A stretch of DNA of 64,000 nucleotides from Myxococcota bacterium (lineage in GTDB: Bacteria; Myxococcota_A; UBA796; UBA9615; JAKLKC01): positions 1 through 64,000 of the forward strand of contig JAKLKC010000020.1 in NCBI GenBank assembly GCA_023150875.1, given 5' to 3'. Shown here in pieces: positions 41 to 12,760 of the stretch (positions are counted from its first letter, which is position 1; each line of letters begins with the position of its first letter). Position numbers and translations under genes: made by a program. Below the pieces are notes generated by a model. It ran no database searches, had not been told where the DNA came from, and worked only from the letters and a program-made list of their open reading frames with translations.

Positions 41-1909
41 TCAGCCCACCCGGCGCCTGCGCCCCGCGGCGATCGCCAGCGCCAGCGCCGCCGCCACCCC
101 GCCGCCCCCGCCGCCGCCCCCGGCCTCGCAGGAGCACCCCTCCGGGTCCCCCCCGGCGCCGCCGTCCCCCGCCGAGTCGTCGTCCCCGGCCGCGTCGTCG
201 TCGGCCACGTCGTCGTCCGCGGTGTCGTCGTCCGGGGCGGTGTCGTCGTCCCCGGCCTCCTCCGCCTCCTCGCCGAGGGCCGCCACGGACGCCGCCCCCA
301 GGGCCTGGATCCGGATCCCCGTCAGCGCCGCCGACTGCCGGGGGCCGGCGGCTCCGCCCGACGGGTAGCGGGACTCCCCGCCCCACCCCGGCCCGTCCCG
401 GAGCAACCGCAGGGGGGCGATGGAGCCCTGGGCGCGGACGGTGCCGTCGGGGTCGAAGCGGGCCCGGGCGTCGCCGTGGAGGAGCCACGCCTCCCCCGCG
501 TGCCCCCGCTCCATCATCCACAGGGCGCCCCCCTGGCGGTTCTCGCCGGTGTCGGCGTCCCACGCCTCCGGCACCGCCAGGACCGCCCCCACGGCGCCCA
601 GGCCTGAAACCTCCGCCAGCTCCCCGTGGTACAGGGCCAGCTCCTCCTCGGCCCCGGCGAGGGCCGTCCCCCCGAGCCCCCAGGCGGCCTCCCCCTGGAG
701 CAGCCGCAGCGCCCCGCAGCAGCCCTCCCCGGCGGCCTCGTAGTCCAGCCCGGCGCCGTAGGCGTGGAGGGCGTCCGCTCCCGGGGTGCCCGGGGGGACG
801 GGCTCCCACCCCAGCTCGGTCCATTCCCCCTGGGCCGCCTCCAGGCTGGGGACCCCTCCCTCCCCCCGGGCGACGGCCACCGTCCCCGCCTCCGCCTCCG
901 CCGCCGCCACCCCCACGGCGCCCAGATCGGCCCGGGAGGTCACCACCGCGGGCAGGGGCCCGGCGGTGGCGGTGACGTCGGGCACCTCGTCGGAGCCCGG
1001 GGGGACGTCGGCCAACTCCCTCGACGCCAGCGCAAACGAGTACCCTTCGGTCAGCGCCGCGAGGTTCCACGCCGGCGTCCACAGGGGCTCCCCGGCGGCG
1101 CACTCCGCGGGCGGGGCCCCGGCGTCCGCCCACATGAACCACGCCGCCCCCTCCCCGTGGACCCGGGCCAGGTCCCCCTCGACGATCACCGCGGTCTCGC
1201 TGTCCACGCCGATCCCCAGCACCGACTCCGGCTCCGGCCCGGCCTGGCAGGCCAGCAGCCCCAGGAGGCGCCCCAGGCGAGCCCTCTCGGTGAAGTGGGT
1301 GTCCACCAGGACGCCCTGGAGCACGGGCAGGAAGTCCTCCCCGGTGGTCATGTACTCGTTCTGGGGATCCCCGAGGGCCTCTTCGGAGTAGACCGAGCCG
1401 TTCCGGGCGGTGAAGTCCAGGCCCGCCAGGATCGCCGCCCCCGCCGACGTCCCTCCGAGGGCGGCTCCCCCCTCCCACGCCGCCATCCACGCAGCCTCCA
1501 GGGTGGTGCCGTCCCACGCCTGGGTGTACTCCCACTGGTCGCCACCGGGGACGAACACCGCCCCGGCCCCGGCGACGAGGGCGGCGAGGTCCGGATCCTC
1601 GGCGGCGGCGGGATCCGGGACGGCCCGGGACTCTACGGCGGCCCCGAAGGAGGTGAAGTAGTCGACCAGCCAGGACGAGGGGGCCTCCAGGTCCAGGAGC
1701 ACCAGGGGGGCCCCTCGCCCGGCGGCGACCTCGGCCAGCAGGCGGTAGGGCTCGTCGGACCAGGCGCCGTAGTCCTCGCTCCCCCCTCCGGCGACCACCA
1801 CGGGGCCGTGGGTGGGCACGGGGGGGCCGAGGGTGGGCGAGGAGGAGGCGGCGGCGGGGACGGCGAGGATCGCGGCCAGGACGAGGGGAGCGGTGACGGG
1901 GTGAGGCAT
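41..1909 (-). CDS. Cyanophycinase-like exported peptidase (family S51) with MYXO-CTERM-like tail
   Basis: This 622-residue protein starts at the ATG at 1909, which places a typical signal peptide (residues 1-23) at the N terminus; a longer start upstream would run through a hexanucleotide repeat. The S51 nucleophile motif GGTSAGAA has its Ser at residue 155. A downstream block DTHFTERARLGRLL (His205) matches the cyanophycinase family, whose members are Ser-dependent exopeptidases acting on beta-linked Asp-Arg polymer or isoaspartyl peptides. The C-terminal half is unusual. It ends in an Asp-rich linker (DDDT repeats), a Cys-x-Cys motif, a poly-Gly/Ala hydrophobic stretch and an Arg cluster, like MYXO-CTERM surface sorting tails. 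The likely location is the cell surface or periplasm. The substrate cannot be read from sequence; the fold call is firm, the cyanophycin specificity is not. Confidence 0.8.
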   Translation of the reverse strand: MPHPVTAPLVLAAILAVPAAASSSPTLGPPVPTHGPVVVAGGGSEDYGAWSDEPYRLLAEVAAGRGAPLVLLDLEAPSSWLVDYFTSFGAAVESRAVPDPAAAEDPDLAALVAGAGAVFVPGGDQWEYTQAWDGTTLEAAWMAAWEGGAALGGTSAGAAILAGLDFTARNGSVYSEEALGDPQNEYMTTGEDFLPVLQGVLVDTHFTERARLGRLLGLLACQAGPEPESVLGIGVDSETAVIVEGDLARVHGEGAAWFMWADAGAPPAECAAGEPLWTPAWNLAALTEGYSFALASRELADVPPGSDEVPDVTATAGPLPAVVTSRADLGAVGVAAAEAEAGTVAVARGEGGVPSLEAAQGEWTELGWEPVPPGTPGADALHAYGAGLDYEAAGEGCCGALRLLQGEAAWGLGGTALAGAEEELALYHGELAEVSGLGAVGAVLAVPEAWDADTGENRQGGALWMMERGHAGEAWLLHGDARARFDPDGTVRAQGSIAPLRLLRDGPGWGGESRYPSGGAAGPRQSAALTGIRIQALGAASVAALGEEAEEAGDDDTAPDDDTADDDVADDDAAGDDDSAGDGGAGGDPEGCSCEAGGGGGGGGVAAALALAIAAGRRRRVG

Positions 1910-1970
1910 GGCGGGGAGGGTATCATGGCCCTCGGGGTCGCCCGGCGGGCTACAGTTAGGGGCCGGAGGC

Positions 1971-2010
1971 GCGGGCACGGGCACGGGCACGGGCTCGGGC
2001 AGGGGCGCGG
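1971..2010. repeat. GGGCAC-type hexanucleotide tandem repeat
   Basis: About six imperfect units of GGGCAC/GGGCTC sit between the start of the cyanophycinase-like gene and the stop of the DUF4143 gene. Related arrays occur at 33764-33806, 39307-39334 and, in both orientations, inside 52372-52526. All are outside genes. Confidence 0.75.
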
Positions 2011-2011
2011 G

Positions 2012-3172
2012 TCAGGGGAGGTCCGGGCGCGTCGCCAGGAACTCCGCCACACCCATGACCTCCACCCCTTTGGCCAGGGGCCACCGGCCTTCGCCCGGGT
2101 GGACCACCCAGGCGGGCGGATCCCCCAGGTCCGCGCGCGCCTCGTGGAAGCCTCGGGTCGGGCGGGGGTCCGAGGCGTACTTCACCTCGATGACCGCTCG
2201 TGCGCGCACACCGTCGTGGATGACCAGGTCGACCTCGGCCCCTCCGTGGGTGCGATAGAACGCGACCTGCCCGGCTCGGTTCAAGGTGGAGCACACCTGC
2301 TCGACCACGTAGCCTTCGAAGGAGGCCCCGAGGATCGGATGGCCGTGGAGGGCGTCGGCGCTGGCGATCTGGAGCAGGGAGTGGAGGAGCCCCGAGTCGC
2401 GGTGATACACCTTAGCGGCCTTCACCAGCCGCTTCCCGCCGTTCACGTGGAAGGGGGGCAGGCAGCGCACCAGGAAGGCCCCCTCCAGGTAGTCCCGGTA
2501 CCGGGCCACGACCCTGCCCGACAGGCCCAGGCTGGCGCCCAGGTCCGACGCGTTCCACAACGCACCCTGGCGGTGCGCCAGCATGGTGAGGAAGCGGTGC
2601 AGGAGGAGGGGTGGGGACTCCAGTCCCATCAGCGGGAGGTCCCGCTCCACCAGGCTCCGCAGGAACGCTTCTCTCCACAGGGTCGAACCGGCTTCATCGG
2701 GAGCGAGGAGCGCATCGGGAAAGCCGCCACGGAACCAGTGGCTCTCCTGGTCCAGGCGATGGGCGACCTCCGGCCAGGTGAACGGGGTCAGTTCGTGGTA
2801 GATGATCCGCCCGGCGAGTGACTCCGCCGACCTCTGGAGCAGGGCGGGCGCAGCCGACCCCAGCAGGAGGTAGCGGCCGGGCCGCCGGTCCAGGTCTACC
2901 AGGGCACGCAAGACGGGGAACAGGTCGGGCGCCGCCTGCACCTCGTCCAACACCACCAGGCGGTCGGCGACCCGCGTCAGGTAGAGCTCCGGGTCCGCCA
3001 GCCGGGCGGCGTCGGAGGGCCGTTCCAGGTCCAGGTAGACCACGTCGGGCCGCCCCGCGACCAGGGCCCGGGCGAGGGTGGTCTTCCCGACCTGCCGCGG
3101 CCCCACCAGGGCGACGACGGGGAAGCGGCCGAGAAGATCGGCGACGACCGACTGGGCATGGCGGACGATCAT
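2012..3172 (-). CDS. AAA ATPase with DUF4143 C-terminal domain
   Basis: This 386-residue protein has an AAA_14-type ATPase followed by a DUF4143 domain. Walker A is GPRQVGKTT at residues 24-32 and Walker B is RLVVLDEVQ at 71-79. The C terminus carries a restriction-endonuclease-like segment with EVKYASD. Length and layout match this large, functionally unassigned family, which is often mobile and multicopy. The ATG at 3172 was preferred to an in-frame TTG at 3199 because the protein then begins with the typical short helix. The start codon lies inside a 19-bp imperfect inverted repeat (3169-3213), suggesting autoregulation. It is transcribed divergently from the TIR-NACHT gene. The cellular role is unknown. 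Confidence 0.85.
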   Translation of the reverse strand: MIVRHAQSVVADLLGRFPVVALVGPRQVGKTTLARALVAGRPDVVYLDLERPSDAARLADPELYLTRVADRLVVLDEVQAAPDLFPVLRALVDLDRRPGRYLLLGSAAPALLQRSAESLAGRIIYHELTPFTWPEVAHRLDQESHWFRGGFPDALLAPDEAGSTLWREAFLRSLVERDLPLMGLESPPLLLHRFLTMLAHRQGALWNASDLGASLGLSGRVVARYRDYLEGAFLVRCLPPFHVNGGKRLVKAAKVYHRDSGLLHSLLQIASADALHGHPILGASFEGYVVEQVCSTLNRAGQVAFYRTHGGAEVDLVIHDGVRARAVIEVKYASDPRPTRGFHEARADLGDPPAWVVHPGEGRWPLAKGVEVMGVAEFLATRPDLP

Positions 3173-3213
3173 CTTTGAAATCTTGCACTCAAGATGCAAA
3201 ATTTCAAGGATGA
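3169..3213. promoter_or_regulatory. 19-bp inverted repeat spanning the DUF4143 start codon
   Basis: The arms 3169-3187 and 3195-3213 match at 17 of 19 positions around a 7-nt loop. The core reads ATCTTTGAAATCTTGCA on the left arm. The ATG of the DUF4143 gene (3170-3172) is in the outer part of the left arm. The element is strikingly AT-rich against its surroundings. It could be an operator bound by a regulator or by the ATPase product, or a translation-blocking mRNA hairpin. Confidence 0.6.
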
Positions 3214-3467: not shown

Positions 3468-6400
3468 GTGGACATCCGATCCAGCGACGTCTTCGTGGCC
3501 CACGCGAGGGCGGACAAGCAGCGGGCAAGGGAACTGACCGAGGCGTTGCGAAGGGCCGGCCTGGACCCGTACCTGGACGACGACGAGCTGCTCGGCGGTG
3601 ACGAGTGGGACCAGGTCCTGCCCGAGGCCCAGCGGCGTGCGCGGGCGACGGTGGTGCTGGTGGGGGCGACCATCGACCGGGCCTACTACCAGCGGGAGGA
3701 GGTGGCGACGGCCATCGCCCAAGCGCGGGTGGAGGGGGCGGTCCACCCGGTGATCCCGATCTACCTTCCGGGGCTGCCCGAGGACCGCGTGCCCTACGGC
3801 CTGCGGGTGAGACACGCCCTCCGGTGGGGCGACCTGGGGGTGGAGGGCGTGGCGGCCGAGGTGGCGCGGGCGGTGAGGGCCATCCCGCTGGCCCCACCAC
3901 CGCCCGGGGTCCACGACGGGGGAGATCCCGGCGCCCACGCCCACCTCCACGACGCTCTGCTCTCCTTCACCGACGAGGAGTGGATCTTCGTCCGCACCCA
4001 GCTTCGGCGGCACCGCTTCGAGTTGCCGGCCCACCGGGAGCCGCGCCGGAGGGAGGCGGAGGCGGTGGTGGCGCAGGCGGTGACCGGCGGCCGCACCCGG
4101 GAGCTACCCAAGCTCCTGGCGGATGCGCGGCGGGTGCTCTGCCGTCCCCGGGGAGACACGGCCGCCTGGATCCGCAACCTCCGGAAACGACTGGGGGAAA
4201 TCAGGGTACTGGGCCTCGTCCCCGGGGACCAGGACGTCGACCTGAACCTGGACGACGTTTACGTAGAGTTGGAGATCACCCCGCGGTCCCCCGGTGTGGA
4301 GCCGCCCTCGCCGGGGGGGCGCCACGGCCTGGTGGGGCCCCACGAGGGCAGGCAGGCGAACGCCCGCACCCTCTCCGAGGCCCTCGACGGTCTGCGGGGC
4401 GCCTGGGTCCGGCGGGGCGTCCGGGGGGTCCTGGTCCTGGGCCTGCCGGGGAGCGGCAAGTCCACCCTGCTCCAGCGGACCTGGTGCGAGGTCCACGACG
4501 CGACCCCCGCACCGAGTGGGAGCCCCCTCCGCGCCCCCGTCCTGGTGCGGTGCGCGACGGCCCAGGGCCTCGGGGTGGAGTCCCTGGGGCGGGGCGACCT
4601 GCGCGCCCTGCTGGAGATCGAGGCCACCGCCGCCGGCTACCCGGGGGCCGCCGGGGCGTGGCTGGACGCCGGAGGCCGGCCCGAGGCGGTCTTCCTGGAC
4701 GGGTTGGACGAGCTGCGGGACGCCGAGGACCGCCGCCTCTTCCTCGCATGGCTGGCGGAGGAGATGAAGGAGTGGAGGGGGATCCCCTTCGTGCTCACCA
4801 GCCGGCCGGCGGCCTGGTCCAGGGCCGAGGCCGAGGCCCTGGGGACGGCGTTCCACGCCTTCGACCTGCTGGCCCTCAGCCAGGCCTCGGTGGACGACTA
4901 CGTCGGCCGATGGTTCCGCCACGCGGCGGAGCGGGAGAAGGTGGGCTGCGACGACGACGAGCTGGCGACGGCCCTCTCTCTGGCGGACACGGAGGCCGCC
5001 GCCCTGCTTGACGAGCTGCACCGCCGCGACCCCACGGAGGCGGAGCGGATCCGGGGGCTGACCGGCAACCCCCTGACCCTCTCCACGGTCTGCCTCGTCC
5101 ACCGCCGCTTCAAGCTCCTCCCCAAGGGCCGGGGCCTCCTCTATCGCCAGTGCCTGGAGGTGCTGCTGCGGGGGCGGCGGGAGGGAGGCCGGCCCACTTT
5201 CGACCTGGACGAGGGGGTGCGCCTGCTGCGGGACCTCGCCTTCCGAATGCAGGAGTCCACCGACGACGCCTCTTCCCCCAAGGAGGTCCCGAAGGCCGAG
5301 CTGATCGCCCACCTGGAGGAGGCCCGGGAGGACATCGCCCGCCTCCAGGACCGCCCTCCCGGCGAGCTACTGGACGACCTGGCGAGAGGGTGCGGCGTCC
5401 TGGTGAGCCCCGACGGGGACCTCCACCAGTTCGTCCACCTGACCGTCCAGGAGTTCCTGGCCTACGAGGCCGTCCGGGCCCAGGGGAGAGGAGCCTGGCT
5501 GGCGGAGCGCGTGGCGGACCCCCGCTGGCGGGAGCCCATCCTGCTGGGGATGGCCGACTCCGCCACCCAGCGGGAGTTCCTGGGGGCCCTGCTGTCGGGC
5601 CCGCTGCCCACCCACGAGAAGCTCCTTCTCGCCTGCCGCTCCGAGAAGGACCTGGAGCGGGAGCCCTTCCGCGCCTTGCTCGACGCCTCCTCGGGGCGGG
5701 ACGCCGCGGACGTCGCCACGGTGCTCCGGGTCTTCGCCGACAAGCCGCCGCGATGGGTCATCGCCGCCGCCGAGGCCCTGTGCTCACACCCGGACGAGGA
5801 GGTCCAGCGCCTCGCCCACCCCCTCGCCGGCCGGGTGTGGGTGGACCCGCGCCGGCACCCGGACCGGGACGGACCCTTCGTGGGCTACGTCGACGACCCC
5901 CGGGGATTGGTCCAGAAGGGCGGGGAATTGGTGCCGGTGGACCTGGGCGTCGGCAGCCGCTGGAGGTCCGCTCCCCTGGACTTGGAGTGGGTGTGGGTGC
6001 CCCCGGGGGAGTTCCTCATGGGGGCGACGAAACGAGAGGGGGAGCCGGGCTTCGATCCCGAGGCGGATGACGATGAGGGCCCGCCCCACCGGGTGAGAGT
6101 AGAACGTGGCTTCTGGATGGGGCGCTTCCCGGTGACCAACGCCCAGTACCGCCGCTTCGTGGAGGGGGGGGGCGCGCAAGAACCCCAGTGCTTCCGCCGC
6201 CCGGGCTTCGACGCACCCGATCAGCCGGTCACCGGCGTGTCCTGGCAGGACGCCCTCACCTACACCCGGTGGGCGTCGGGGGTCGCCGGAGGCCCCGTGA
6301 CCCTCCCAACCGAGGCCCAGTGGGAGTACGCCGCCCGGGGGGCGGACGGGAGGCCCTACCCGTGGGGGCCCGAAGCCCCGGACATCGGGAGGGCCTGGTG

Positions 6401-6749
6401 CCGATTCCTGGCGGACGCCGGAGTCTCGGTGGATGGCCCCGCACCGGTGGGCGGCCGCCCGCACGGGGCGGGCCCCTTCGGCGCCGAGGAGCAGGCAGGC
6501 AACATGTGGGAGTGGTGCCTGGACCCGTATCGCCCATACGCGCCGGGCGCGACCGTCGATCCTGGGCCGGCGCCGCATTCCGCTGACACGGTTCGTCAGG
6601 AGGATGACACGCCCCGCGTGTTGCGCGGGGGCTCCTGGGGCTTCGGTCCCGGGGGGCTGCGGGCCGCCGTCCGGGGCGGGTACCATCCCAGGGTCCGGCT
6701 CGAGGTCATCGGCTTCCGGGTGGTGTGTCGTTCCCCCGAGCCGCGCTGA
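3468..6749 (+). CDS. TIR-NACHT-FGE/C-type-lectin conflict protein, DGR target 1
   Basis: The protein has 1093 residues. Residues 1-140 form a TIR domain; YYQREEVATA places a Glu at 77/78 where TIR NADases carry the catalytic Glu. A small helical linker domain follows at about 160-260. The NACHT-type STAND ATPase has Walker A GLPGSGKST (325-333) and Walker B VFLDGLDEL (about 408-416), followed by a helical region. From about 838 to the end lies an FGE-sulfatase/C-type-lectin domain whose last 44 residues are encoded by variable repeat 1. The paired Cys residues of true formylglycine-generating enzymes are absent near RGGSW, so the domain is probably a ligand sensor, not an enzyme. The inferred mechanism is ligand binding, NACHT oligomerisation, then TIR activation (NAD depletion or signalling). 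The gene stands alone, convergent with the reverse transcriptase, and ends at a hairpin terminator. Confidence 0.9.
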   Translation: MDIRSSDVFVAHARADKQRARELTEALRRAGLDPYLDDDELLGGDEWDQVLPEAQRRARATVVLVGATIDRAYYQREEVATAIAQARVEGAVHPVIPIYLPGLPEDRVPYGLRVRHALRWGDLGVEGVAAEVARAVRAIPLAPPPPGVHDGGDPGAHAHLHDALLSFTDEEWIFVRTQLRRHRFELPAHREPRRREAEAVVAQAVTGGRTRELPKLLADARRVLCRPRGDTAAWIRNLRKRLGEIRVLGLVPGDQDVDLNLDDVYVELEITPRSPGVEPPSPGGRHGLVGPHEGRQANARTLSEALDGLRGAWVRRGVRGVLVLGLPGSGKSTLLQRTWCEVHDATPAPSGSPLRAPVLVRCATAQGLGVESLGRGDLRALLEIEATAAGYPGAAGAWLDAGGRPEAVFLDGLDELRDAEDRRLFLAWLAEEMKEWRGIPFVLTSRPAAWSRAEAEALGTAFHAFDLLALSQASVDDYVGRWFRHAAEREKVGCDDDELATALSLADTEAAALLDELHRRDPTEAERIRGLTGNPLTLSTVCLVHRRFKLLPKGRGLLYRQCLEVLLRGRREGGRPTFDLDEGVRLLRDLAFRMQESTDDASSPKEVPKAELIAHLEEAREDIARLQDRPPGELLDDLARGCGVLVSPDGDLHQFVHLTVQEFLAYEAVRAQGRGAWLAERVADPRWREPILLGMADSATQREFLGALLSGPLPTHEKLLLACRSEKDLEREPFRALLDASSGRDAADVATVLRVFADKPPRWVIAAAEALCSHPDEEVQRLAHPLAGRVWVDPRRHPDRDGPFVGYVDDPRGLVQKGGELVPVDLGVGSRWRSAPLDLEWVWVPPGEFLMGATKREGEPGFDPEADDDEGPPHRVRVERGFWMGRFPVTNAQYRRFVEGGGAQEPQCFRRPGFDAPDQPVTGVSWQDALTYTRWASGVAGGPVTLPTEAQWEYAARGADGRPYPWGPEAPDIGRAWCRFLADAGVSVDGPAPVGGRPHGAGPFGAEEQAGNMWEWCLDPYRPYAPGATVDPGPAPHSADTVRQEDDTPRVLRGGSWGFGPGGLRAAVRGGYHPRVRLEVIGFRVVCRSPEPR
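6610..6739 (+). repeat. DGR variable repeat 1 (VR1)
   Basis: This 130-bp segment at the 3' end of the TIR-NACHT-FGE gene aligns without gaps to the template repeat at 7969-8098 (opposite strand). By eye it differs at 18 positions, and each corresponds to an adenine in the template. Examples are AAC to GGC, TTC, TAC, GTC or CTC, AGG to GGG, and GAC to GTC. Constant flanks surround the variable core. Immediately beyond, VR1 and VR2 read GAGCCGCGCTGA while the template reads GAACCCGCGCTG, as expected for IMH versus IMH*. Confidence 0.95.
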
Positions 6750-6791
6750 CCTTTGGCCTTCGACCTTTGGTCCTTGGTCCTCCGGTCCTCC

Positions 6792-6819
6792 CCGGCGCGA
6801 AGCGCCGGCGACTTTTTTT
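6792..6819 (+). terminator. Hairpin plus T-run after DGR target 1
   Basis: CCGGCGC (6792-6798) pairs with GCGCCGG (6802-6808) around a GAA loop; a run of seven T follows at 6813-6819. This is a canonical intrinsic terminator for the target gene. Its position, 52 bp past VR1, matches that of the hairpin beyond VR2, so it may also act as the DGR homing hairpin. Confidence 0.75.
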
Positions 6820-6858
6820 CGGCGTGCGCCCTCCTCGTCACCGGCATGACAGGTCCCG

Positions 6859-7845
6859 TCACCCTCCGAACACCCACGCCGCCGCGAACGACCGCACGAC
6901 CTGGCCCGCACGGGCGGGGTCGCGCAGCCTCCGCCGCAGGTGAGCGGGGAGCCGCCCCCGGGCCTTGGGCCCCAGCCACATCCGATGGGGAGTCACCCGG
7001 TAGCCCAGGTAGGACACCGCCCCGCGGGTGGAGATCGGCCGCGCCTCGGGGTCCTTCAGCTCCAGCCCCCTCTCCCTCTGGAGCCACTCCGCGACCTCGT
7101 CCCGCCAGCGCAGCAACTCCCCCGGGTCGTCGCCGAAGAGGTGCACGTCGTCCATGTACCGCTGGTAGGCGACCCGCAACTCCCGGCAGACGTGGTGGTC
7201 CAGCCCGTCGAGATACACGTTCGCCCACCACTGGCTGGTGAGGTTGCCGATGGGCAGCCCCCGCCCGGGCTCTCCCGGTCCGCTCCACCCGAGCCACGAC
7301 ACGACCTCGGGGCGCCGGTACAGCCCCGACCCGCTCTCCAGGATCCGGTCCACGAGCCGCCGGATCCCGGGCTCCGGCAGTCGCCGAGACAACAGGCCCC
7401 GGAGGCGTTCCCGGTCGATCCGGTAGAAGTAGCGGGCCATGTCCAGCCCGAGCACGTAACCGTATCGACGGCACCGGCGCCGGAAGGTCAGCAGGGCCCT
7501 GTGGGCGCCGCGCCCCTCGATGCAGGCGTAGCTGTGGGCAATGAACGAACGGTCCCACCACGGCGCGACCACGCGGTAGAGGGCCCGATGGACCACGCGG
7601 TCCCTCACGGGGGCCGCGGAGACGAGACGCCGCTTGGGGTCCCGGACCCGGAGCAGCCGGTAGCCGGCGGGCCGCCAGGTGCCCGCGTTCAGGGCGCCCG
7701 CCAGCGCCAGGACGTGCCGCTCGGCGTCGAGCCCGAACGCGGCGACATCCGGCCGCCGCCTCTTGCCGCGCTCGAACTCCCGCCACGCCGCCCACAGGTT
7801 CGACGGCGCCACGACCTGGTCGAAGCAGCGCAGGGTCCGCACCAC
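6859..7845 (-). CDS. DGR reverse transcriptase
   Basis: The 328-residue protein begins at GTG 7845. The catalytic box is YMDD (residues 230-233), with the third Asp in LGLDMARYF (Asp135). The motif [10 protein letters not shown] (196-205) is the hallmark of DGR reverse transcriptases, which replace the usual QG..SP with IG..SQ; this separates it from group II intron and retron enzymes. It should copy the template-repeat RNA into adenine-mutagenised cDNA that replaces VR sequence. It lies directly downstream of the template repeat on the same strand, in the order HTH protein, avd, TR, RT. Length is usual for the family and no maturase or endonuclease domain is seen. Confidence 0.95.
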
Positions 7846-7968
7846 GTCAGGCCCAAGGGGCCCGCCCCGGCTTTCGCCTCGGGGCTACCGGCGGGGGCGG
7901 GCGTGGGGGGCCTTGGGCCCCGGGAGCGTCGCCTGCTCGCGCTCGGACCCCAGCGGGACAGCGCGGGT

Positions 7969-8098
7969 TCGGGGGAACGACACACCACCCGGAAGCCGAT
8001 GTTCTCGTTCCGGTTCCTGGGATGGTTCCTGTTCCGGTCGGCGGCCCGCAGCCTCCTGGGATCGTTGTTCCAGGAGCCCCCGCGCAACACGCGGGGCG
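7969..8098 (-). repeat. DGR template repeat (TR)
   Basis: This 130-bp non-coding segment lies between avd and the reverse transcriptase. Read on the minus strand it would encode the lectin tail with seven AAC codons clustered in the core ([12 protein letters not shown]). AAC is the usual DGR template codon because adenine mutagenesis reaches many residues but no stop. It matches VR1 and VR2 except at adenines. It has no start, and its frame lacks the rest of the target gene, so it is the template, not a gene fragment. Confidence 0.95.
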
Positions 8099-8118
8099 GC
8101 CGCTCTCCGGCGACGCGG

Positions 8119-8448
8119 TCACAGGTTACCGCCGTCGAGGTGGCGACGCCAGCCGCCGATCTGCCTGCCGATCCGGTCCAGCATCGCCGCGGCATGCAGC
8201 AGTCCCGCCTCGACCAGCAGGTCCAGCTCGAACGCCAGCCGCAGGAGGGCCCGCAGTCGGGCCGCGGCACGGTCGGCCAGGTCCACTTCCACCTCCCGGT
8301 CCAGCCCGTGGAGGGCCAGGGTGACGTGCTCCACCAGGTCCAGGGCGGCGTGGTGGACGCGTCGCCCCACTGGGGCATCGGCGCGGAGGTTGGCGCAGAT
8401 CCAGCGCGCGAGCTGGATCGCGTCGTTGTAGAGCGGCGCCTCCTTCAC
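8119..8448 (-). CDS. avd: Accessory variability determinant Avd
   Basis: This 109-residue helical protein starts at GTG 8448, which overlaps the stop of the upstream HTH gene as GTGA, implying coupled translation. The C-terminal pattern [14 protein letters not shown] followed by [11 protein letters not shown] matches Avd of the 23S-rRNA-intervening-protein-like four-helix-bundle family. Avd forms a positively charged pentamer that binds the reverse transcriptase and TR RNA and is needed for homing. Its place just upstream of the TR is canonical. Confidence 0.88.
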
Positions 8449-8999
8449 CGCGGGCTCCGGGACTCGGAGCGGCGCACCAGGCCGCCAAGGGCGGGGAGCA
8501 CCCGGGCCTCGATCTGGCCGGCAAGGGCGAGGGACTCGGGGTCCGAGACCATGTGCAGCCAGGCGATCGCCTCCGCGGCGTGGACCCGGGCCGCGTCGTA
8601 GGCGTCGGCTTTGGCCCGGGCCCGAAACGCATGGGCTCCCCGGGCGGCGGCGAGGTTGCAGGAGGCGAGGCACGGGAGCGCCGGGTGATCCGCGGGGAGC
8701 TGCTCCCGCGCCGCGCGCCAGATCGCGACCCCGTCCACGAAGGCCCGGATCGTCGTGACCGAGTAGCGTGCGCCGGGCTCGACGTGGGGTGCCAGGGCCT
8801 CGGCCACCTCCTGCTGGAGCGCGGCGACCTTCTCGGCGCGGCGGCGGGCGTCGGCGGGGGTGGCCGGGAGGTCCGACTCGTCCACGAGCCAGACGCCGCC
8901 CACCTTGCGCGCGGGAAGCTCCCCCTTCTTCAGGGCGTAGCGCACCTGGCGGACGGACTGGCCCAACCGGGTGGCGACGTCGGCGAGGGTCAGGAGCAT
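8445..8999 (-). CDS. HTH protein with possible Avd-like helical domain
   Basis: The 184-residue protein opens with an excisionase/MerR-type winged helix (LADVATRLGQSVRQVRYALK, then a GVWLVDESDL wing, residues about 3-46). A charged linker follows, then an all-helical domain (about 75-180) with NLAAARGAHAFRARAKADAY and QIEARVLPALGGLVRR. These resemble the four-helix-bundle (S23/Avd) pattern, though weakly. Being translationally coupled to avd, it is likely a DGR regulator or a second nucleic-acid-binding accessory. The HTH call is firm; the second domain is inference. Confidence 0.65.
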   Translation of the reverse strand: MLLTLADVATRLGQSVRQVRYALKKGELPARKVGGVWLVDESDLPATPADARRRAEKVAALQQEVAEALAPHVEPGARYSVTTIRAFVDGVAIWRAAREQLPADHPALPCLASCNLAAARGAHAFRARAKADAYDAARVHAAEAIAWLHMVSDPESLALAGQIEARVLPALGGLVRRSESRSPR

Positions 9000-9091
9000 G
9001 GGGCCTCGGGAGGATGGGGAGACCGGTGTACCGAGGATGGGAGAGGCGTGACGGCCGTGTCAAGAGCCTGACAAGGGGATTCGCTCGCGAT

Positions 9092-9110
9092 CGCGGCGCT
9101 GCGCGCCGCG
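9092..9110 (-). promoter_or_regulatory. Hairpin 51 bp beyond VR2, likely DGR cis element
   Basis: Perfect 8-bp arms CGCGGCGC / GCGCCGCG surround a 3-nt loop. The flank between VR2 and this hairpin is similar in sequence to the flank between VR1 and its hairpin at 6792. No T-run follows on the minus strand, so it is a weaker terminator candidate but a good match to the cruciforms needed downstream of DGR variable repeats. Confidence 0.6.
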
Positions 9111-9151
9111 AGGAACGCGAAGAGCAAGGACCGAGGGTCGAAGGTCGAGGG

Positions 9152-12100
9152 TCAGCGCGGCTCGGGGGAACGACACACCACCCGGAAGCCGATGCCCCCG
9201 TTCCGGTACCTGGGATGGTTCCAGTTCCGGACGGCGGCCCGCAGCCACCTGGGACCGTTGCCCCAGGAGCCCCCGCGCAACACGCGGGGCGTGTCATCCA
9301 TCCGACGCTCCTTGTCACCCCGCGACACGCCGTGTTCCCTAGCCGCGCTGCCATGCCTCGCCTGCCGCGGCCCGGCACCGCCCCGTAAGTCGACGACCCC
9401 CGCGGGGACTTCTTCCCGCTCGATGACCAGATCGGCCTCCTTCCCTCCTTCCATCCACGCCGTCGCGCACCACTCCCACACGTTGCCCGCGAGGTCCCAC
9501 AGTCCCTCGGGCGAGTGTCCGGCGGGGAAGGCCCCCACCGGCGCTCCCCGCCGCCCCAGGAACGGGTCGCCACCCCAGTCGTGAGCGGCCCGGGCGCCGT
9601 CCCCCTCCCCCGGGGTTGGGTCGCCCTCCCACGGGTAGGGACGCCCCGTGCCCCGACGGGCGATCGCCTCCCACTCCCGAGACGTCGGCAGGTCGAGGGG
9701 GCCGAGGGCTGGCAGCCCCCACCGCTCCGTCGCCCAGCGGCAGAAGGCCCGAGCCTCCCACCACGAGACTCCGATGACGGGCTGGTTGGGACGCCGGACC
9801 TGTTGGTGCCAAGCGGGGGGCACGCTTCCCACCGGGCCCGCCCGTCCCTCCACCCACCACCGGGGATCGGAGGAGTCATCGTCGTCCACGAAAGCGCGAT
9901 ACTCCGCCACCGTCACCGGCCACACCCGGACCCAGAGATCGGGCGTTCGGGCGCGACCCCTCGGGAGCGCCTGGTACTCCCCCCCGTCTCCCCCCACCGC
10001 GTACTCCCCCCCCGGCACCCTCACCCACCCCGTCTCGGGGCCGAACTCCCTGACCCCCCTCGGGTCCGGCAGCCGCGGATCCCCGAGCCGCCCCAGGGCC
10101 TCCAGCGCGTCCAGGCGGTCCTCCCAGGGCCAGGAGCCCCCCCGCACCTTGAACCGGTCCGCGATCTCCCGCCGCAGCTCCTCCCGCACCGGCTGGGTGC
10201 GGAAGTGGCGGGCCTCGTACTCCGCCACGCCCCCCGCCGCCAGGGCCAGCAGGCGCGCCTCCATGGGATCGCCGGGAAGGGCCCCCGCGAGCCACTGCTT
10301 GACGCAGGCCACCGCGTGCTCGCCGTCCACGTGGCCGAAGGCCCCCACCAGGAAGCGCAGGCAGCCGGTCCAGGAGGGATCGGCGAGCCGGGAACCCCGC
10401 TCCCCCCGGCCGTCCGACAGCCACTCCAGGCACTCCTCCTGGCGGTTCACGTACTCGGCGGCGATGGAGCGGGCCGCCAGGTACTCCTGGAAACTCCGGT
10501 GCCAGGGCCGGACCACCCGGGCACTCCCCGTCCCCTCGAAGCGCAGCAGGCCGGTCCGGGCCGCCAGGCGGTCCACCTCGTCCTCCCCCTCCCGGGCCCC
10601 CTTGGCCTTCCCGGCGGCGTGGAGGGCGCGGCCCGCCTCGGCGAGGGCCAGGCGGGTGCCCCCCTCCTCCTGCATGGCCCGGAACACCGCCTGTAGGGAC
10701 TCCCTCAGGCTCCCCGCCCCCGCCTTCTTCTCGTCCTCGGTCCCCGCGTCCACCCGGCGCTCGCACAGGAGCCGGGTCATCTCGTAGTACAGCTCCGCCC
10801 GGTCGTCGGGCAGGCGGCGGTGGTCCAGGTAGACCAGCAACATGCAGGTCAGCAGCAGGGGGTTCTCCGCCGGGGAGCGGTTCTCGGCGTCGGTGGGGAA
10901 GTCCGCCTGGGTCGCCCGAACGGCCGCCAGGGGGGGGCCGGCCTCCTCGCCGGGGGCGTACACCCCCAGCCACACCGTCACCAGGCGCTCGATCCGCCCG
11001 TCGTCCAGGGGCGCGATGTCGGCGCGGACGAAGCCCTCCGGCAGGTCGACGTCGGTGTGGGCCGCCGGCCGGGTGGTCAGCACGACCCTCACGCCCAGCG
11101 CCCCCAGGGCTCCCAGGGCCGTCACCACCGCCTGCCTCCCCTTGGCGTCGGGCACCTCGTCCAGGGAGTCCACCAGCAGCAGGTAACGCCCCCTGGCCAG
11201 GCCCTGGCGCACCGCCTCGGGGTCGGCGCGGTCCCCGAAGGTGTCGGGGGAGCACAGCAGGGCCACCAGGGACTCCCCCACCGCCCGCCCGGGACCCCCG
11301 CCCGCCGTACACAGGTGCTGGGCCAGGGTGCGCGCGGAGTGAAGGACCGGCACGGGGAGGACGGGGCTCCGGCCCCGGAGGGCCGCCAGGTCCAGGTGGT
11401 GCTCCTCCTCCCCCTCCCCCCGCTCCGCCGCCGGCTGGCCCAGGGCGTGGCGGGCCAGCACCCAGGCGACGTGCTGGAGCAGCACGCTCTTCCCCGCCCC
11501 GGCGCTCCCCACTACGGCGACCCGGGGGTGGTCGGGCAGCGAGAGCACCGCGTCCATCCAGGCGGGGCGGGACTCCTCCTTTCCCCCCGCTTCGGCAGGG
11601 CGCTGACCGAAATTCTCCCGCTCCCCCCGCACCGGCCTCCCCTTCACCTCGCGCCAGGGCGCGTCGGCATGAAGGTTCACGAACCACCTCGCGCGGTCGG
11701 ACTTCTTCCCCAGCAGGGTGGCGAGCCCTCCCGCGTCCCCGCAGCGCCACTCCCCCGCCTTGTGCTCCAACCACTCCTTCTCCCACGTCTCCAGGACCCG
11801 GGAGGCGCCGGGATCGGGGGGGAAGGCGCGGCGGTGCCAGTCGAGGACGCCCGACACGGCCGAGTCCGGGACCTCGGCCGGGTTGCCCAGCCGCGGCGTC
11901 ACCCCCACGAGCCTCTTCCGGATCCGCCGGACCTCCGACTCCTCCCCCTCCCACTCAGTGGGGACCTCGTCCGGGAAGTAGGGCACCACCACCACCACCG
12001 TCCGTGCCCCCCGCGGGTCAAGGGCGTCCCCGACCAGGTCCCCCAGCACCCCCAGCCCTCCCCCGTGCCTCGCCCCCAGCAGCACGACCCGCAGGTCCAA

Positions 12101-12760
12101 CTCCGCCAGCCGATCCGCCGCCCCCTCGTCCCCGGGGTCGATCCGCGCCACCCGGTCCCGCACCACCTGGGACAGGGCCCCGAGCCCGGCGATCACCCGG
12201 TCGGCCACCTCGCCCAGCTCCGCCCGCACCGCCACCACCCCGATCCGGACCTTCTGCTCCCCCCAGAGGCGTAGGCCGATCCTCCCCCCGATCCGGTGCA
12301 GCTCCCGGACCACCTCCCCCGCCCCCGCCTCCCGGCCTGCCGCCGGGTCCGGGGCCGTGAGGGCATGCAGGATGTTCAAGTGCGCGTAGTTCCTCAGGTT
12401 CAGGTCCACCGTCCCGCGGCACACCGGCACCACCCGGGCGGCGGGGTTGCGCTTGCGCTGCTCCAGGGCCGCGAGGGCACCGGAGCGCCCGTCGGCCTCC
12501 ATCGCCTCCCGGGTCACCACCACCAGGCAGCCCGCCCTCTCCAGCGCCGACTGCTCCTCAGCCGCGGGATCTCCCCCCGCCAGGACGTCGCCCCGGTGGA
12601 AGGCCTCCCACCTCTTCCCGGCCAGCCCCTCGGCCAACGCCCTTACGAAGTCCCCGTCCCCCTCGCCCCCCAGGATGCAGAAGTGCACGGCCGTGGCCCT
12701 CCGGCCCGCATCCTGCCAGAAGCGGGCGGCCGGAGCCAGGGTGGGGGCCGGGTTTGACAC
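9152..12760 (-). CDS. TIR-like-NACHT-FGE/C-type-lectin conflict protein, DGR target 2
   Basis: The 1202-residue protein is read from GTG 12760, preceded by a GGGAGGGGGAG ribosome-binding site; longer starts would run into the divergent regulator's leader. Residues about 20-130 are a divergent TIR-like alpha/beta domain. A second alpha/beta domain (about 165-330) vaguely recalls DUF4062. The NACHT ATPase has Walker A GSAGAGKS (about 416-423) and Walker B LLLVDSLDEVPD (about 525). A helical region follows, then an FGE/C-type-lectin domain from about 905 to the end, closing with VR2. It shares its end sequence with target 1 but little elsewhere, apart from domain order. It heads the minus-strand set target 2, HTH protein, avd, TR, RT. 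Confidence 0.87.
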   Translation of the reverse strand: MSNPAPTLAPAARFWQDAGRRATAVHFCILGGEGDGDFVRALAEGLAGKRWEAFHRGDVLAGGDPAAEEQSALERAGCLVVVTREAMEADGRSGALAALEQRKRNPAARVVPVCRGTVDLNLRNYAHLNILHALTAPDPAAGREAGAGEVVRELHRIGGRIGLRLWGEQKVRIGVVAVRAELGEVADRVIAGLGALSQVVRDRVARIDPGDEGAADRLAELDLRVVLLGARHGGGLGVLGDLVGDALDPRGARTVVVVVPYFPDEVPTEWEGEESEVRRIRKRLVGVTPRLGNPAEVPDSAVSGVLDWHRRAFPPDPGASRVLETWEKEWLEHKAGEWRCGDAGGLATLLGKKSDRARWFVNLHADAPWREVKGRPVRGERENFGQRPAEAGGKEESRPAWMDAVLSLPDHPRVAVVGSAGAGKSVLLQHVAWVLARHALGQPAAERGEGEEEHHLDLAALRGRSPVLPVPVLHSARTLAQHLCTAGGGPGRAVGESLVALLCSPDTFGDRADPEAVRQGLARGRYLLLVDSLDEVPDAKGRQAVVTALGALGALGVRVVLTTRPAAHTDVDLPEGFVRADIAPLDDGRIERLVTVWLGVYAPGEEAGPPLAAVRATQADFPTDAENRSPAENPLLLTCMLLVYLDHRRLPDDRAELYYEMTRLLCERRVDAGTEDEKKAGAGSLRESLQAVFRAMQEEGGTRLALAEAGRALHAAGKAKGAREGEDEVDRLAARTGLLRFEGTGSARVVRPWHRSFQEYLAARSIAAEYVNRQEECLEWLSDGRGERGSRLADPSWTGCLRFLVGAFGHVDGEHAVACVKQWLAGALPGDPMEARLLALAAGGVAEYEARHFRTQPVREELRREIADRFKVRGGSWPWEDRLDALEALGRLGDPRLPDPRGVREFGPETGWVRVPGGEYAVGGDGGEYQALPRGRARTPDLWVRVWPVTVAEYRAFVDDDDSSDPRWWVEGRAGPVGSVPPAWHQQVRRPNQPVIGVSWWEARAFCRWATERWGLPALGPLDLPTSREWEAIARRGTGRPYPWEGDPTPGEGDGARAAHDWGGDPFLGRRGAPVGAFPAGHSPEGLWDLAGNVWEWCATAWMEGGKEADLVIEREEVPAGVVDLRGGAGPRQARHGSAAREHGVSRGDKERRMDDTPRVLRGGSWGNGPRWLRAAVRNWNHPRYRNGGIGFRVVCRSPEPR
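9162..9291 (-). repeat. DGR variable repeat 2 (VR2)
   Basis: This 130-bp segment ends the second target gene. It aligns ungapped with the TR and differs at 10 positions, each at a TR adenine: AAC to GGC twice and TAC once, AGG to TGG twice, GAC to GTC, GAT to GGT, GAG to GGG. Several template AAC codons are unchanged, so its history is independent of VR1. Confidence 0.95.

Follow-up and report, generated by a model that had tools for sequence, protein, structure and literature searches.

Introduction

Two papers describe the systems closest to the locus reported here. In the available text of Doré 2024 (PMC10907252), diversity-generating retroelements (DGRs) of clade 5D commonly have two STAND-CLec targets (CLec, C-type lectin), some of them with TIR domains; these are proposed to be antigen sensors, and natural diversification is demonstrated in another species. 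In the available text of Kaur 2021 (PMC8195603), STAND-FGS proteins whose N-terminus is EAD1, TIR, or calcineurin are associated with DGRs and are proposed as diversified sensors of invaders. Here we analyze a complete DGR located at positions 3468-12760 of a 64,000-nucleotide stretch of contig JAKLKC010000020.1 from a Myxococcota bacterium (hereafter the window). The element contains a reverse transcriptase (RT), an Avd protein, a 133-nt template repeat (TR), and two variable repeats (VRs), each located in a receptor gene. It belongs with the known STAND-FGE (formylglycine-generating enzyme) DGR targets of these two papers. With a probability of roughly 75%, we consider that the DGR diversifies an old, non-interchangeable, convergent pair of STAND-type receptors, each combining a sensing lectin tip, a NACHT switch, and an N-terminal output. 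The locus adds to the known picture a convergent pairing of non-sister receptors, retention of the pair in loci without RT, members with SIR2 domains, a probable asymmetry between a catalytic and a non-catalytic TIR domain, and a gene encoding a helix-turn-helix (HTH) domain fused to a helical bundle.

Results

The variable repeats differ from the template only at adenines

The TR was aligned to each VR without gaps over 133 nt. In all 30 differences (19 for VR1, 11 for VR2) the TR base is an adenine, and the non-adenine positions are 100% identical between the TR and both VRs. Under random differences, the chance of an adenine-only pattern is 3.7e-18 for VR1 and 1.2e-9 for VR2. The TR adenines are spread over 17 codons, seven of which are AAC; none can be mutated to a stop, and their mutation could yield about 7e13 peptides. 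A single A near the 3' end of the TR is a G in both VRs; this may be an IMH*/IMH (initiation of mutagenic homing) difference instead of a product of mutagenesis. The host genome yielded no further VRs of this TR; the best extra match (70%, on contig C152) is part of a kinase-FGE gene and differs at many non-adenine positions.

The components of a complete DGR, consisting of one RT, one TR, one Avd, and two targets, had been proposed from the letters of the sequence, and all were identified by profile matches and TR/VR alignment (Table 1). The RT motifs IGNLTSQ and YMDD are both intact. Three libraries named the Avd, each with a weak score: bAvd at 2.9e-7 (under the gathering score), NCBIfam DivGenRetAVD at 2e-8 (under the cut-off), and PHROG Avd at 1.5e-6. 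The protein was also aligned with the Avds of related loci. An Rfam search returned no match. The minus strand carries target 2, the HTH-bundle gene, Avd, the TR, and the RT, in that order, and target 1 on the plus strand is convergent to this cassette. Both VRs stop two residues short of the stop codon, which places the variable patch at the extreme C terminus of each target, as had been stated.

The retrohoming of Bordetella phage BPP-1 needs a hairpin. In the loci examined, hairpins with a stem of 7-9 bp and a loop of 3-4 nt were found 3' of 14 of the 17 VRs, mostly 35-50 nt away. The background was 3% in random stretches of the window and two of 10 for TR flanks. Both hairpins of the window, which the original prediction did not contain, have GNA loops. 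By analogy, the hairpins downstream of the VRs appear to fit the BPP-1 retrohoming hairpin.

It is highly improbable that the window DGR is a recent fossil, that is, an inactive element whose VRs hold old diversity. Two relatives (L186 and L187, see below) appear to have lost the RT; however, the RT, Avd, TR, and hairpins of the window are intact, and the perfect conservation of non-adenine positions extends to both VRs.

Table 1. Features of the retroelement and its two targets in the window (pLDDT, predicted local distance difference test)
Feature	Coordinates	Strand	Evidence
Target 1, beta-type receptor, 1093 aa	3468..6749	+	TIR_2 ~3489-3833, NACHT ~4428-4922, FGE/CLec 5985-6725
VR1, 133 nt	6610..6742	+	19 differences vs TR, all at TR adenines
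DNA hairpin 3' of VR1, 7-bp stem CCGGCGC/GCGCCGG, loop GAA	6792..6808	+	3% by chance in random stretches of the window
DGR reverse transcriptase, 328 aa	6859..7845	-	RVT_1 5.7e-12; PHROG RT 8e-81; IGNLTSQ, YMDD
TR, 133 nt, 25 adenines	7966..8098	-	TR/VR alignment
Avd, ~109 aa, GTG start	8122..8448	-	bAvd, DivGenRetAVD, PHROG Avd
HTH_17 (MerR/BldC/excisionase-like) fused to Avd/S23-like four-helix bundle, 184 aa	8445..8999	-	HTH_17 1.5e-9; AlphaFold2 pLDDT 90.8
DNA hairpin 3' of VR2, 9-bp stem TCGCGGCGC/GCGCCGCGA, loop GCA	9091..9111	-	Hairpin search
VR2, 133 nt	9159..9291	-	11 differences vs TR, all at TR adenines
Target 2, alpha-type receptor, ~1202 aa from GTG at 12760	9152..12760	-	TIR-like ~12410-12658, NACHT ~10970-11521, FGE/CLec 9176-10036

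Target 1 is adjoined by an AAA_14/DUF4143 ATPase (2012-3199, minus strand). A peptidase S51/cyanophycinase-like protein (41-1990, minus strand) has an Asp-rich linker and a MYXO-CTERM-like tail that scores slightly under the curated cut-off.

The two targets and their domains

The original prediction gave both targets the order TIR, NACHT, lectin. For target 1 this holds in full: the Pfam matches to TIR_2 (3.3e-15), NACHT (6.6e-9), and FGE (3.6e-47) are all over the curated cut-offs. For target 2, NACHT (1e-7) and FGE (4.3e-42) stand, whereas the TIR domain is divergent, with a TIR_2 match of just 0.0022, which is under the curated cut-off. The Walker A and Walker B motifs are GLPGSGKS and VFLDGLDE in target 1, and GSAGAGKS and LLLVDSLDE in target 2.

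In a profile-profile comparison, the N-terminus of target 2, taken together with two homologues from other genomes, matched a profile of clear TIR domains with 97.2% probability (E 3e-11); a PDB sequence search with the same N-terminus gave no match. Alignment with solved bacterial TIR domains (7uxr and 7uwg) revealed that the position of the glutamate is kept in target 1. No acidic residue of target 2 is aligned at this position, in an alignment that is remote, and the TIR-like domain thus appears to lack the catalytic glutamate. Since the AlphaFold2 model of this N-terminus is poor (pLDDT 45.9), we only infer that catalysis was lost. An effector-associated domain (EAD) following the TIR domain of target 1 was considered; however, the similarity was not significant. 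Residues ~170-310 of target 2 (~11830-12250, minus strand) form a conserved domain between the TIR-like/EAD1 module and NACHT, which is common to the loci L053, L184, and L185.

True formylglycine-generating enzymes contain an active-site cysteine pair. The VR segments of both targets are without this pair, which argues for a binding domain and not an FGE enzyme. The host genome contains a large repertoire of FGE-fold proteins: it has 37 matches to the FGE domain, many of them within long open frames, and just three were seen as DGR targets.

Relatives of the locus exchange their N-terminal domains

The host genome contains a second DGR (L053, contig C124, 2301-8903), whose RT is 60% identical to that of the window; it carries a TR, an Avd, and an HTH-bundle gene of its own and a single target. 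This target has the architecture EAD1-NACHT-FGE, and the place equivalent to that of target 1 is taken by an EAD1-TIR protein that is encoded separately, in convergent orientation to the RT. The output is therefore fused to the receptor in the window and linked to it by a shared adaptor domain in L053, which supports the TIR domain as receptor output.

Outside the host genome, the closest RTs with both flanks sequenced are those of L056 (56% identity), L057 (52%), L058 (49%), L059 (46%), and L061 (41%). In each of these five loci the cassette is flanked on either side by a VR, and the target genes that contain the two VRs are convergent. Additional convergent pairs of FGE genes were found in L120, L125, L177, L178, L179, and L180. 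Opposite orientation is thus common in this group, and two-target STAND-CLec loci are common in clade 5D in the available text of PMC10907252; the suggestion that one cassette with two receptors in opposite orientation is unusual was not borne out. The NACHT-FGE core of the relatives bears TIR, SIR2, or calcineurin-like N-termini. Both targets are calcineurin-like in L056 and both are SIR2 in L057; L058 combines SIR2 with calcineurin-like, and L059 combines TIR with an unassigned domain that looks cyclase-like by eye.

TIR, SIR2, and calcineurin-like N-termini are typical of anti-phage STAND systems, and the relatives carry this very set. An anti-invader role would agree with it, and the set makes allorecognition in place of phage sensing rather improbable. 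In that case the receptors would respond to self, kin, or developmental cues, diversification would provide individual labels, and the TIR output would police non-kin or drive programmed death. Two observations would favor allorecognition: both papers (PMC10907252 and PMC8195603) state in their available text that FGE/STAND DGR systems are over-represented among multicellular bacteria, and MYXO-CTERM-like tails in the host genome, which score under the curated cut-off, hint at a myxobacterial and possibly social host.

The receptors form a conserved convergent pair

A receptor phylogeny was built on the regions from NACHT to the C terminus (14 rows in the first version; the groups were named after viewing the first tree). 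In the target names the suffix U denotes a gene on the RT strand and D a gene convergent to the RT. Window target 1, L056_D, L057_U, L058_U, L059_U, L187_a, and L186_a form a well-supported clade (100/99.8), hereafter beta, which comprises one target from each of seven loci. The partners fall outside the beta clade into two groups, one of window target 2, L053, L056_U, L187_b, and L186_b, the other of L057_D, L058_D, L059_D, and L060_D. Monophyly of the partners (alpha) was neither supported nor rejected (approximately unbiased test, p-AU 0.395). The tree rules out recent duplication as the source of the two targets for the near clade. All seven pairs are convergent, including those of the two loci in which no RT was found, and the effectors are swapped among TIR, SIR2, and calcineurin-like domains.

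The split in the RT phylogeny, between window, L053, and L056 on one side and L057, L058, L059, and L060 on the other, parallels the split among the receptors. The beta receptor gene runs toward the RT in the window and in L056 but lies on the RT strand in L057-L059; therefore, either the cassette was flipped or the partner was changed once.

The RT was not found in the draft genomes of L186 (G052:C214) and L187 (G188:C160). The two L187 genes are otherwise divergent, yet their 3' ends match at 35 of 36 nt, a pattern that retrohoming would produce. The spacer of L186 reads like a remnant of the HTH-bundle gene. Both loci are apparent DGR fossils. A convergent pair that predates the DGR was considered in view of the missing RT; on account of these two features, it was ranked behind loss of the DGR, and the pair seems to have been retained after that loss. 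In L186, a separate TIR protein adjoins the convergent pair.

The two targets could also be independent receptors that share a cassette for convenience of the template, with no functional pairing. We regard this as possible, with the odds somewhat against it. One shared TR gives both targets the same variable scaffold, and the outgroup loci have either one target (L053) or two targets of the same clade (L180). In contrast, each of the seven loci contains exactly one beta receptor, convergent every time, even where the RT is gone.

An HTH-bundle gene is coupled to Avd

The gene between target 2 and Avd was absent from the original prediction. In the AlphaFold model of its product, an N-terminal HTH domain is followed by helices at residues 85-100, 107-123, 127-151, and 154-180. 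Foldseek matched the N-terminus to BldC and MerR-type proteins. For the bundle, the top PDB matches were 2gsc and 2rld, which belong to the S23 family, and the Avd chains of 8ub7 and 4dwl, with probabilities up to 1.00 and E values of 0.03-0.25; such E values are expected because the bundle is small. A profile comparison between the HTH-bundle protein and Avd (hhalign) gave a probability of 45% and an E value of 2.2e-4. The C-terminal half of the profile retrieves proteins that Pfam assigns to PF05635; a direct Pfam scan of the C-terminus of the window protein called neither Avd nor PF05635. The predicted fold of the C-terminus is Avd/S23-like, and homology to Avd/S23 is likely but not proven.

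Homologues of the gene are located immediately upstream of Avd in L053, L056-L059, L061, and L116, and more were found in L117, L125/L181, and L177-L180. In the RT phylogeny, the loci with an HTH-bundle gene form one clade (support 99/97). The loci retrieved for RTs outside this clade, some of which are cut short, yielded no homologue; L060 is without that region. The stop codon of the HTH-bundle gene overlaps the start codon of Avd by 4 nt, as (A/G)TGA, in nine of the nine loci checked, and the Avd start in the window is GTG.

The literature searched contained no description of a DGR gene of this kind; subscription journals were thinly covered, and the missing description is therefore not proof of novelty. 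The gene is apparently undescribed until now. The available text of Doré 2024 (PMC10907252) mentions an HTH gene at DGR 8, which belongs to another clade.

We see even odds that the HTH-bundle protein simply autoregulates the cassette and is mechanistically unrelated to Avd. Its N-terminus is MerR/BldC/excisionase-like, and such proteins usually bind promoters; however, the C-terminus is predicted to fold as an Avd/S23-like bundle, and the overlap with Avd was present in every locus checked. A more elaborate model is doubtful as a whole: the protein would be a second, DNA-binding Avd-type subunit that joins Avd and the RT and anchors the ribonucleoprotein on the DNA of the target or the promoter, and the element would serve an obligate heteromeric receptor pair, both members hypervariable, in which the catalytic TIR is controlled by, or assembled with, its non-catalytic TIR partner.

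Discussion

We propose that the RT, together with Avd, reverse-transcribes the TR RNA and randomizes the adenine positions in the cDNA. This cDNA would replace the 3' ends of both receptor genes, via the shared 3' core and the hairpins ~50 nt beyond. Each receptor would act as a STAND-type switch, with a variable lectin-fold surface at the C terminus that may sense a ligand, a NACHT domain as the ATP-dependent switch, and an N-terminal output module. The TIR domain of target 1 probably degrades or converts NAD+ when activated. The TIR-like domain of target 2 is probably without NAD+ chemistry; it more likely scaffolds, restrains, or co-assembles. In this proposal the pair is old, was passed on with the element, and has members that are not interchangeable; joint action or a separate sensing role for each receptor is therefore probable.

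Several points weigh against this proposal. The basis of the suggested immune role is comparative genomics, in this analysis as in Kaur 2021 and Doré 2024. The adenine-specific divergence comes from a TR/VR comparison within one genome, and the apparent glutamate loss in target 2 comes from a remote alignment and a poor AlphaFold2 model. What looks like one ancient pair could be a constant beta receptor with two successive partners, given the undecided monophyly of alpha. Finally, both targets of the distant L180 fall into one clade; the pairing rule is therefore local to the near clade.

DGR-diversified lectin domains on NTPase conflict proteins were already known, as the original prediction stated (PMC8195603 and PMC10907252, in their available text), and its label of an adaptive sensor is plausible and already in print as a proposal. 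Among bacterial proteins, STAND receptors diversified by a DGR are strong candidates for sensors that hypermutate. A non-sister pair with swapped effectors, kept even without an RT, suggests selection on the pair itself, and the conserved pair is a direct test case for heteromeric receptors in bacteria that resemble nucleotide-binding leucine-rich repeat (NLR) proteins. Should the HTH-bundle protein be part of the ribonucleoprotein, DGRs would gain a new component, one that could help account for the way in which the target DNA is found.

Comparison with known systems

The clade 5D DGRs, such as DGR 3 and DGR 6 of Thiohalocapsa PB-PSB1 (PMC10907252), are, like the window element, cellular, with two targets that combine a STAND NTPase with a C-terminal CLec/FGE domain, some of them with TIR N-termini. 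In contrast, the available text of that paper does not mention convergent placement, non-sister pairing, or an Avd-like protein fused to an HTH domain; the window RT was placed in an RT tree of our own. The STAND NTPase-FGS conflict systems (PMC8195603) likewise have EAD1, TIR, or calcineurin-like N-termini, NACHT, FGS, a link to DGRs, and an EAD-linked TIR in trans, as in L053; the available text contains neither SIR2 N-termini nor a pairing conserved around the cassette. The antiviral Avs/bNACHT STAND proteins, as cited in the available text of PMC10907252, have in common with the window receptors an N-terminal effector, a NACHT/STAND switch, and a C-terminal sensor; however, their sensor is a fixed repeat domain, whereas that of the window is a lectin fold diversified by a DGR.

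The BPP-1 DGR (Avd structure 4dwl) has in common with the window element the RT, the Avd, the TR, a VR at the 3' end of a gene, and a hairpin past the VR. It differs in having a single target, a phage tail fibre, a hairpin nearer to the VR, and no HTH-bundle protein. As an analogy only, in paired plant NLRs such as RPS4/RRS1 two dissimilar receptors of the NLR type are likewise encoded as a fixed pair of genes, with TIR output; no homology of the sensors is claimed.

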